46,154 bases of DNA, from positions 1 to 46,154 of the IMG/VR virus record IMGVR_UViG_3300048924_000326; one strand, written 5' to 3'. Origin of the DNA: a virus. The translations under genes and the position numbers were made by a program. Each line of letters opens with the position of its first letter. Position 1 is the stretch's first letter. Under the pieces are notes generated by a model that had not been told where the DNA came from, made no database searches, and saw only the letters and a list, made by a program, of their open reading frames with translations. Of this stretch, positions 27,281 through 30,706 are shown one piece after another.

Positions 27281-28555
27281 ATGAAGATTCTCGACTTCTT
27301 CCGGCACTCGAATGCGTCGGAGGTGCAGTCGCGTCCGCGCGCGGAGGACTCGCAGGGGCATCAGTTCAGCGGCCTCGACGATCCGGCGCTGTTGGAGTAC
27401 ATCCGCGGCGGAACCACGGCCGGCGTGGATACGGCCCGTGACCGCAGCCTTCGGAACATGGCGGTGCTGCGTTGCGTGACGCTGATCTCCGAATCGATCG
27501 GCATGCTGCCGGTGAATCTGCAGAGCAGCGACGACAAGAAGCAGGTGCAAAGCGACAACCCGGCGCACCGGCTGCTGAAATACAAGCCGAACGATTGGCA
27601 GACGCCCATCGAGTTCAAGAGCCTCTTGCAACTGCGGGCCCTGCTCGACGGACAGTCCTTCGCGCGCGTGATCTGGTCGGGCAGCCGGCCGATCCGCTTG
27701 ATCCCGATGGATCGTGGTTCGACCAAGCCGCGTCTGAATGGCGCTTGGCAGATGCAGTACGACTACACGACGCCGGACGGCAATCAGATCACCCTGCCGG
27801 CGAAAGAGGTGTTCCACCTGCGCGATCTCTCGCTCGACGGGATCAACGGCATCTCGCGTGTCAAGCTGGGTCGCGATGCGTTGGAGCTGGCCGAGCAGGC
27901 GGAACGCGCGGCGTCGCGGACGTTCAAGACCGGTGTCATGGCGGGCGGTGCCATCGAAGTTCCGAAGGAGCTTTCCGAGAACGCCTACAACCGGATGAAG
28001 TCGTCGCTCGACACCGACTACACGGGCGCGGAGAACGCCGGCCGCTGGATGCTGCTGGAGGAGAGCGCGAAGGCCAACAAGTTCGCCAGCACGGCATCCG
28101 AGTCGCAGCAGATCGAGAACCGGAACCACCAGATCGAGGAAGCCGCGCGCATGTACGGCGTGCCCAGGCCCCTTCTGATGATGGATGACACGAGCTGGGG
28201 CAGCGGCATCCAGCAGTTAGCGATCTTCTTCATCCAGTACGGGCTATCGCATTGGTTCGTGTCCTGGGAGCCGGCAGCCGCACGCTGCCTTCTTCCCGAG
28301 GAGCAACTCGGACGCCTGCAATACAAGTTCAACGAAGGCGCGCTGCTGCGCGGCACGCTGGCCGACCAGGCTGCCTTCTTCTCCAAGGCGCTCGGTGCCG
28401 GCGGCCAAGCGCCCTGGATGTCGCAGAACGAGGTGCGTGAGCTGTCCGACCTCCCGAAATCTGCCGACCCGCAAACCGACGCACTGCGCAACCCGATGAC
28501 CCAGCCGGGCAAGCCGGTATCAAGGAACAACGATGAGCCTCCTGAACCTGCCTGA
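27281..28555 (+). CDS. Portal protein, HK97 family
   Basis: 424 residues. The N-terminus and core follow HK97 portal proteins: VLRCVTLISESIGMLPVNLQ, then VFHLRDLSLDGINGISRVKLGRDAL, and SESQQIENRNHQIEEAARMYGVPRPLLMMDDTSWGSGIQQLAIFF, the conserved GVPxxLL and WGSG stretch. A dodecamer of this protein forms the DNA entry channel. The C-terminus overlaps the protease gene by 23 bases in another frame. Confidence 0.95.
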   Translation: MKILDFFRHSNASEVQSRPRAEDSQGHQFSGLDDPALLEYIRGGTTAGVDTARDRSLRNMAVLRCVTLISESIGMLPVNLQSSDDKKQVQSDNPAHRLLKYKPNDWQTPIEFKSLLQLRALLDGQSFARVIWSGSRPIRLIPMDRGSTKPRLNGAWQMQYDYTTPDGNQITLPAKEVFHLRDLSLDGINGISRVKLGRDALELAEQAERAASRTFKTGVMAGGAIEVPKELSENAYNRMKSSLDTDYTGAENAGRWMLLEESAKANKFASTASESQQIENRNHQIEEAARMYGVPRPLLMMDDTSWGSGIQQLAIFFIQYGLSHWFVSWEPAAARCLLPEEQLGRLQYKFNEGALLRGTLADQAAFFSKALGAGGQAPWMSQNEVRELSDLPKSADPQTDALRNPMTQPGKPVSRNNDEPPEPA

Positions 28556-29369
28556 GATCCGGGCCGATCACCGCCTGGGCGTCGCACAGTTCGACGTTCG
28601 CCCTGATGCGCTCGAGCGCTGGCAGCCGGAGGTGCGCGCCGCAGTGGAAGGCGAGGCCTCCATCTCCATCTACGACGCCATCGGTGAGTCGTGGGATGGG
28701 CAGGGCTTCACGGCCAAGCGCATGAGCGCGGCACTGCGCAGCATTGGCGCCCGGGACGTGACGGTCAACGTCAATTCGCCCGGCGGCGACTTCTTCGAGG
28801 GTGTCGCCATCTACAACATGCTGCGCGAGCACAAGGCCAAGGTCACGGTGCGCGTGATGGGCCTTGCTGCTTCGGCGGCGTCCGTGATCGCGATGGCCGG
28901 CGACGAGATCCTGATGGGTGACGGCGCGTTCCTGATGGTTCACAACGCATGGGCCGTCGCCATCGGCAACCGCCACGATATGGCCGACGCAGCCGCACGG
29001 CTGGCACCGTTCGACGACGCGATGGCGCAGGTCTATGCCTCGCGCACCGGCCTGTCGAAGGCCGAGACCGCCACTTTGATGGACAAGGAAACCTGGATCA
29101 GCGCGGCGCAAGCGGTCGATGACGGCTTTGCCACTGGCCTGATCGAGCGTTCCGACATCACTCAAGACACCAAGGCGCAGGGCGGCAAGAAAGCCCTCGC
29201 GCTGATCGAAGCGTCGATGGCGCGTGCGGGGCATTCCCGAACCGCTCGCCGTGATGCCTTCAAGTCCCTTTTCACTGGCACGCCGGGCGCTGCCTCTGAA
29301 GCCGCCATGCCGGGCGCTGGCGAAACCGCAGCTTTGCTGCTTTCTCTCACCAACTCCCTCAAGGTCTAA
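28533..29369 (+). CDS. ClpP-like head maturation protease
   Basis: 278 residues. A ClpP-type serine protease: NSPGGDFFEGVAIYNML, then GLAASAASVIAMAG with Ser114, LMVHNAWA with His137, and an Asp near 161. It cuts the scaffold part of the capsid protein after assembly. The start lies inside the portal gene. The C-terminal 60 residues are variable and Ala-rich. Confidence 0.95.
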   Translation: MSLLNLPEIRADHRLGVAQFDVRPDALERWQPEVRAAVEGEASISIYDAIGESWDGQGFTAKRMSAALRSIGARDVTVNVNSPGGDFFEGVAIYNMLREHKAKVTVRVMGLAASAASVIAMAGDEILMGDGAFLMVHNAWAVAIGNRHDMADAAARLAPFDDAMAQVYASRTGLSKAETATLMDKETWISAAQAVDDGFATGLIERSDITQDTKAQGGKKALALIEASMARAGHSRTARRDAFKSLFTGTPGAASEAAMPGAGETAALLLSLTNSLKV

Positions 29370-29371
29370 CC

Positions 29372-30706
29372 ATGAAACGCACTCTCATTTCTCTCGCGGC
29401 TGTTGCCGCGCTCTCCGTCCTGGCCGCCGGTGCTGCCTATGCGTCCGCCGTCGATGCAGTCGCTGCCAAGGCTTCCGCGAATCCCGTCCCGCGCGGCCTC
29501 ATTGCCGTTCGCGCAGACGGTGGCCCTCCAGGTGACATCAAGGCCACGGTCGAAGCACTCAACAGGGCCTTCGCCACCTTCAAGGAGGAGCACACCAAGC
29601 AGCTCGAAGACATCAAGAAGGGCAACGCCGATGCGCTGCAGGCCCTGAAAGTCGAGAACATCAACGCGGACATCGCCCGCTTGCAGAGGGAGGTTGACGA
29701 CACCAATGTGAAGTTGGCAGCGGCCCAGATGGGCGCAGGGGCCGGCGGCAAGGCCGTGGCGGATGTCGAGTACACCGGTGCGTTCCGCGCGCACTTCAAG
29801 AAGGGCGATGTCCAGGCGGCGCTCAACAAGGGCGCGGACGGCGAAGGCGGCTACCTCGCCCCGGTGGAGTGGGATCGCACCATCACCGACAAGCTCGTGC
29901 TCGTCTCTTCGATGCGTCAGCTGGCCACCGTGCAGCCGGTGTCGGGGGCTGGCCTGACCAAGCTGTTCAACCTGGGCGGCACCGCATCGGGTTGGGTTGG
30001 CGAAACCGCGGCGCGTCCGCAGACTGCTACCGGCACCTTCGCTTCGCTCGGCTTCGGCTGGGGCGAGATCTATGCGAACCCGGCGGCCACCCAGCAGATC
30101 CTCGACGACTCGGCCATCAACCTCGAAGCCTGGCTCGCGGGTGAGGTGGAGACTGAGTTCTCCAAGCAGGAGGGCGCTGCATTCTTCTCCGGCGACGGCA
30201 CGAACAAGCCGTTCGGCATCCTCACCTACGTCACCGGCGGCGCCAACGCAGCGAAGCATCCCTTCGGCGCGATCAAGACCGTGAACAGCGGCGCAGCGGC
30301 TGCGATCACCTCGGACGGGATCGTTGACCTCATCTACGACCTGCCTTCGGCATTCACCGCGAACGCTGGATTTGCGATGAATCGCAAGTCGCAGGGCACG
30401 ATCCGCAAGCTGAAAGACGGTCAGGGCAACTACCTCTGGCAGCCGTCCTATGTGGCAGGCCAGCCTGCCACCCTGGCCGGCTTCCCGATCACCGAGGTGC
30501 CGGACATGCCCGACATCGCCGCCAATTCGGTGCCGGCCCTGTTCGGTGACTTCAAGCGCACCTATACGGTGTACGACCGTGTCGGCGTGCGCGTCCTGCG
30601 CGACCCGTTCACTGCGAAGCCCTACGTGCTGTTCTACACGACCAAGCGTGTTGGTGGCGGCGTTCACAACCCGGAGCCGATGCGCGCGCTGAAGATCTCG
30701 GCGTAA
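29372..30706 (+). CDS. Major capsid protein, HK97 family
   Basis: 444 residues. The capsid body begins near residue 133 (EYTGAFRAHFKKGD), with GEGGYLAPVEWDRTITDKL, and later AINLEAWLAGEVETEFSKQEGAAFFSGDG and TEVPDMPDI, all typical. Residues 55-120 form the coiled-coil delta domain that the protease removes (TVEALNRAFATFKEEH). Residues 1-26 are odd: MKRTLISLAAVAALSVLAAG, ending AYASA, which looks exactly like a Sec signal peptide with an AxA cleavage site. If the start is right, this is unusual for a cytosolic protein; it would be removed with the delta domain. Confidence 0.95.
   Translation: MKRTLISLAAVAALSVLAAGAAYASAVDAVAAKASANPVPRGLIAVRADGGPPGDIKATVEALNRAFATFKEEHTKQLEDIKKGNADALQALKVENINADIARLQREVDDTNVKLAAAQMGAGAGGKAVADVEYTGAFRAHFKKGDVQAALNKGADGEGGYLAPVEWDRTITDKLVLVSSMRQLATVQPVSGAGLTKLFNLGGTASGWVGETAARPQTATGTFASLGFGWGEIYANPAATQQILDDSAINLEAWLAGEVETEFSKQEGAAFFSGDGTNKPFGILTYVTGGANAAKHPFGAIKTVNSGAAAAITSDGIVDLIYDLPSAFTANAGFAMNRKSQGTIRKLKDGQGNYLWQPSYVAGQPATLAGFPITEVPDMPDIAANSVPALFGDFKRTYTVYDRVGVRVLRDPFTAKPYVLFYTTKRVGGGVHNPEPMRALKISA

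Follow-up and report, generated by a model that had tools for sequence, protein, structure and literature searches.

The major capsid protein encoded in the window (the whole stretch of 46,154 nucleotides of viral DNA analysed here, an IMG/VR virus contig) begins with a signal-peptide-like segment, which appears to be a genuine, selected, recurrent and optional hydrophobic tip on the delta scaffold of an HK97-type capsid protein. The head genes of this tailed phage follow the order terminase, portal, ClpP-like head maturation protease and major capsid protein (Table 1), and the tail genes 3' of the head module include a lambda-type tape measure and a central fibre. The capsid open reading frame (ORF; 29372-30706) encodes a 444 amino acid HK97-type major capsid protein: residues 159-441 match Pfam Phage_capsid (PF05065, 6.8e-81), and the shell domain matches the RcGTA capsid at 5e-72 by sequence and, among PDB fold matches, at 3.4e-30 by fold.

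Table 1. Features of the head module and capsid gene of the window.
Feature	Position	Strand	Basis
Portal protein	27281..28555	+	PF04860 1.1e-77
ClpP-like head maturation (prohead) protease	28533..29369	+	phrog_1684 1.5e-105; Pfam CLP_protease 1.3e-28
Protease gene end with AAGG ribosome-binding site serving the leader ATG	29352..29369	+	
Signal-peptide-like leader, residues 1-26 (MKRTLISLAAVAALSVLAAGAAYASA)	29372..29449	+	Basic n-region; hydrophobic core, not amphipathic; c-region of small residues
Spacer, residues 27-39 (VDAVAAKASANPV)	29450..29488	+	Later part of predicted leader helix 5-36 (AlphaFold2)
Box PRGLIAVRAD, residues 40-49	29489..29518	+	Alignment of 80 homologues; predicted disordered
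Scaffold (delta) coiled-coil hairpin, helices 56-84 and 88-120	29537..29731	+	AlphaFold2
Third scaffold helix (132-142) and low-confidence linker to about residue 168	29765..29875	+	AlphaFold2; RcGTA alignment
HK97-fold shell domain of major capsid protein, residues 159-444	29846..30703	+	PF05065; RcGTA capsid

Features of the leader

The N-terminus of the capsid ORF reads MKRTLISLAAVAALSVLAAGAAYASAVDAVAAKASANPVPRGLIAVRADGG, the first 28 residues being MKRTLISLAAVAALSVLAAGAAYASAVD (29372-29455). The original prediction of a signal-peptide-like N-terminus with an AYASA cleavage-like site is confirmed: the leader fits the pattern of a Sec signal peptide cut by signal peptidase I (basic n-region, hydrophobic h-region of 10-15 residues, small residues at positions -3 and -1), with ASA at residues 24-26. 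The rule applied here (basic n-region, uncharged hydrophobic core and small-x-small c-region) is our own and not SignalP; it accepted nine of ten textbook E. coli signal peptides, and the thresholds between N-terminus classes are arbitrary. At a mean hydrophobicity of 0.75 and with an uncharged run of 24 residues, the leader has a hydrophobic moment of 0.05, too low for an amphipathic helix. A lipoprotein (SPII) signal was rejected for want of a lipobox Cys in the window leader. In three alphaproteobacterial capsid leaders (L115, L174, L188) a Cys does end the hydrophobic core, and some of these read as a lipobox (VGAC). Of the 81 leaders classed as hydrophobic in the tree set, 77 have a basic n-region; the AXA signal-peptidase motif is strict in 59 and loose in 75, and the c-region of some family leaders contains P, K or E.

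The leader ATG lies 2 nt past the TAA stop codon of the protease gene, with AAGG at a spacing of 7. A scan of the capsid ORF found no in-frame ATG, GTG or TTG after it before codon 104, which falls within the scaffold helices, so that initiation at residue 60 or later, a reservation attached to the original prediction, has no standard codon to use until then. The leader ATG appears to be the only plausible start of the capsid protein, except for a non-standard start or one at codon 104 or beyond, the latter removing most of the scaffold domain. In every homologue the first ATG close to the stop codon of the protease gene was taken as the start. A Shine-Dalgarno (SD) match of at least 4 bases precedes 75 of the 82 starts classed as signal-like and 146 of the 156 classed as polar, as against 19% of internal ATGs. 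Mis-calling of the homologue starts was rejected, with an SD at about 89-94% of the chosen starts per class over the 19% background.

The leader also appears to be coding sequence under protein-level purifying selection, because synonymous changes far exceed nonsynonymous ones. Between the window and its relative L018, 34 of 38 leader residues are identical at 79% DNA identity, and 20 of 35 synonymous but only 4 of 79 nonsynonymous sites have changed (P=1.8e-9; pN/pS 0.09). Pooling nine leader pairs from separate lineages gives pS 0.44, pN 0.08 and pN/pS 0.19 (P about 7e-23), with weaker ratios of 0.3-0.6 in some pairs. This selection and the recurrence of similar leaders in many related phages speak against the chance fusion that had been offered as one explanation. 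We consider it extremely improbable that the start has been misread and the protein truly begins downstream of an untranslated leader: the lack of a standard start until codon 104, the SD at the leader ATG and the selection on the leader all argue against it, and we found nothing in its support.

Box and scaffold

The spacer that follows the leader is kept in L018 and L200, with related versions in L097, L053 and L213. The box behind it has the consensus P-R-G-(I/L)-x-x-V-R-A-(D/E) and follows directly on either the leader or a short polar start. In an 80-row alignment, which excludes the leaderless class without a box, R41 and A48 are present in all 80 rows, V46 in 71 and R47 in 74. The box is the constant element, common to the leader and polar classes, and the hydrophobic segment the optional one. 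An invariant box within a variable, disordered segment is likely to be a binding or processing site for scaffold function, perhaps a protease docking or processing motif; we found no report of it in the open-licence literature.

The AlphaFold2 model of the capsid protein (80 sequences, pLDDT 75) comprises a low-confidence helix at residues 5-36 (pLDDT about 50 for the leader helix), disorder at 37-55, a coiled-coil hairpin at 56-120, a helix at 132-142, a linker and the HK97 fold. The model therefore contains a fused delta scaffold, that is, a helical coiled-coil domain of about 100 residues ahead of the shell, and the hairpin and the following helix correspond to the normal delta domain that had been noted after the leader. 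Because the mature N-terminus is expected near residue 148, by alignment to the RcGTA capsid, the leader would form the far tip of the scaffold domain, more than 100 residues ahead of that point, and would be lost together with the scaffold. The ClpP-like prohead protease would be expected to cut away delta and leader together; the proposed discarding of the leader with delta is thus in line with a position more than 100 residues upstream of the N-termini of mature relatives.

Occurrence and evolution

The survey drew on IMG/VR, GTDB genomes and phage records and comprised 266 homologous capsid genes with 209 distinct N-termini. Of these, 65 are signal-like, 25 otherwise hydrophobic and 119 polar or leaderless (an example of the polar class is MKQQSNARVPRG...). 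Absence from all homologues, which had been named as evidence against the leader, is therefore not what is observed, and the hydrophobic leader is missing in about half of the relatives, including those with capsid cores closest to the window. Shuffled sequences predict 6.0 signal-like N-termini, and none of 262 portals and proteases from the same loci is signal-like. These controls reject an artefact of GC- and Ala-rich composition. The original remark that a Sec-type leader is unexpected on a capsid protein, which acts in the cytoplasm, is upheld. The rule is also satisfied by 1 of 53 tail-terminator and 3 of 34 major-tail homologues, whose starts are less sure.

Named hosts of phages with leaders are Burkholderiaceae (9/10), some Oxalobacteraceae, Comamonadaceae, Sphingomonadaceae and Hyphomicrobiales; leaders are absent from the assignable Paracoccaceae, Roseobacteraceae, Alcaligenaceae and Lysobacterales loci. 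Leaders of different clades share a common physical grammar and not a common sequence. The sphingomonad clade L247-L263 has a different common leader, about TALAAVATVLAHPFRALL, followed by a long Pro-rich spacer and then a PRA box. The distant annotated phage capsid proteins examined (at most 45% identity) are leaderless, with the exception of Bradyrhizobium phage ppBeUSDA76-1 (L166:2342-2460), which is 33% identical and has a long annotated hydrophobic leader, MKQFVLGRGAFAVGMLALVTVAAVLVLGF.

Mapped onto a tree of 171 capsid cores (N-terminal region removed), the hydrophobic state must change 26 times, and well-supported branches force at least 17 of these changes; all trees here were quick trees or FastTree trees. 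A single ancestral leader with occasional loss is compatible even with these forced changes, as the counts do not separate gain from loss. On the 151 shared loci, the leader label changes 26 times on the core tree, 21 times each on the delta and portal trees, and 17 times on the protease tree. The window shares 92% identity with L018 in the portal, 96% in the protease, 91% in the N-terminus, 84% in delta and 73% in the core; the corresponding values for L006 are 70, 73, 43, 60 and 91%. The DNA profile shows a crossover at the delta/shell boundary, about 350-500 nt from the start of the capsid gene (29722-29871): upstream of this breakpoint the window matches L018, and its shell matches L006, L057 and L084. 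The head module of the window is thus a mosaic. Taken together, the label-change counts, this mosaic and the crossover suggest that leader, delta and protease tend to travel as one unit, and linkage alone could account for their joint movement.

Relation to known systems

HK97 gp5 has the same fused N-terminal coiled-coil scaffold (delta, mcpN), HK97-fold shell and adjacent portal and protease genes, and removal of the scaffold is expected in the window protein likewise. The window differs from HK97 in its ClpP-like protease and in having about 55 residues ahead of the coiled coil, whereas the 103-residue HK97 delta is without a hydrophobic leader. To our knowledge, the HK97 delta also has no PRGIxxVRAD box. 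The mcpN of HK97 comprises a pair of coiled-coil helices together with a third helix and a strand, an arrangement matched by the predicted window scaffold, and its coiled coils adhere to the portal (PMC10275583).

A PDB search with the full capsid protein gave no match reaching over the leader. The closest solved relative is the RcGTA major capsid protein Rcc01687 (6tb9, 6tba; E 5e-72 by sequence, 42-45% identity by fold). Its PDB sequence contains no aligned counterpart of the window leader or box and, at 398 residues, leaves little room for one; the N-termini of the RcGTA capsid are described at residues 99-106 (PMC7296036). The closest annotated phage capsid protein is gp76 of the isolated Burkholderia phage Bcep176 (YP_355412.1, 70%), whose annotated start yields MSKKLLIAVLTAALTGPVGAVPRGIISVRAE, a leader followed by a box. 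Unlike the window leader, that of Bcep176 is shorter (about 20 residues) and has no spacer ahead of the box. We found no report of a signal-like capsid leader, including for phiE125, phi1026b and Bcep176, in the open-licence literature, where four papers (PMC5567305, PMC7996906, PMC13274417, PMC10975493) deal with signal peptides or sequences only in other proteins or as methods; notice in a subscription journal is possible.

Proheads of T4 initiate on the inner membrane (PMC9958956), and the T4 system (gp20 portal, gp40, YidC) provides a precedent for membrane-linked prohead nucleation. The attachment of T4 is via the portal initiator, however, and not via a capsid-protein leader.

Function of the leader

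Our tentative proposal, which we hold at somewhat less than even confidence, is that an optional, selected leader at the scaffold tip engages the inner membrane to nucleate the procapsid and is then removed with delta by the ClpP-like protease. The signal-like segment would first engage the inner membrane, being bound or inserted and not productively exported; capsid subunits, and perhaps the portal too, would concentrate at the membrane face during procapsid nucleation; and the prohead protease would then strip leader and delta, freeing the shell. We infer that the leader acts in assembly ahead of cleavage, and the many relatives without it imply that the family can assemble capsids in its absence. 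Of the two readings that fit, a scaffold or portal contact and a membrane tether that is transient and not exported, we slightly favour the tether. Our leaning towards the membrane has two grounds: leaders that differ in sequence but share a physical grammar, together with repeated label changes, favour a generic partner such as lipid, and a basic n-region with a low hydrophobic moment points to a membrane-seeking segment, not an amphipathic packing helix. The location upstream of a coiled coil whose HK97 equivalent contacts the portal (PMC10275583) also suits a membrane role. On the other hand, a strong export signal should be detrimental when carried by an abundant capsid protein, contact with other scaffold tips or with the portal would suit a hydrophobic tip equally well, the leader helix is modelled at low confidence, and the signal-peptidase site is loosely kept.

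That last point would sit well with a hydrophobic assembly contact, a possible explanation to which we give somewhat less credence, in which leaders at the inward-facing delta tips cluster with one another, with the portal or with encapsidated protease and so stabilise the scaffold before cleavage. The leader is indeed N-terminal to the predicted hairpin, the counterpart of the portal-adhering HK97 coiled coils, and its label fits the protease tree best, but the tracking of an adjacent gene may be mere linkage. A specific interface should moreover conserve sequence, yet leaders vary widely across clades and are often absent, and the basic n-region and near-zero moment resemble a membrane signal. 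The same resemblance, with its full n/h/c grammar, the ASA at the expected place and a strict AXA in most leaders, would be explained by a functional Sec signal peptide, part of the capsid protein being exported or cut by signal peptidase I. This we regard as very unlikely, given that capsid assembly and packaging are cytoplasmic, that this phage has no need of periplasmic capsid protein and that some leaders lack the cleavage motif. It is also unlikely, if less so, that the leaders are tolerated accidents, host or phage signal sequences occasionally fused upstream of delta and harmless as delta is discarded. Repeated presence and absence, the polar and leaderless relatives and module exchange near the delta/core boundary would all be expected of such accidents, but purifying selection in many pairs and the strong enrichment over neighbouring genes would not.

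For most tailed phages outside T4, the site in the cell at which procapsids nucleate is poorly known. A broader picture, which we offer as a doubtful one, is of a broad alpha- and betaproteobacterial phage family in which a removable signal-like leader on the scaffold domain targets the major capsid protein to the inner membrane and HK97-type procapsids nucleate there, protease, leader and delta are swapped as a module, and the PRGIxxVRAD box serves in docking or processing. A selected signal-like capsid leader would be a genetically simple natural system, in which closely related capsid cores that carry the leader and others that lack it lend themselves to direct comparison.
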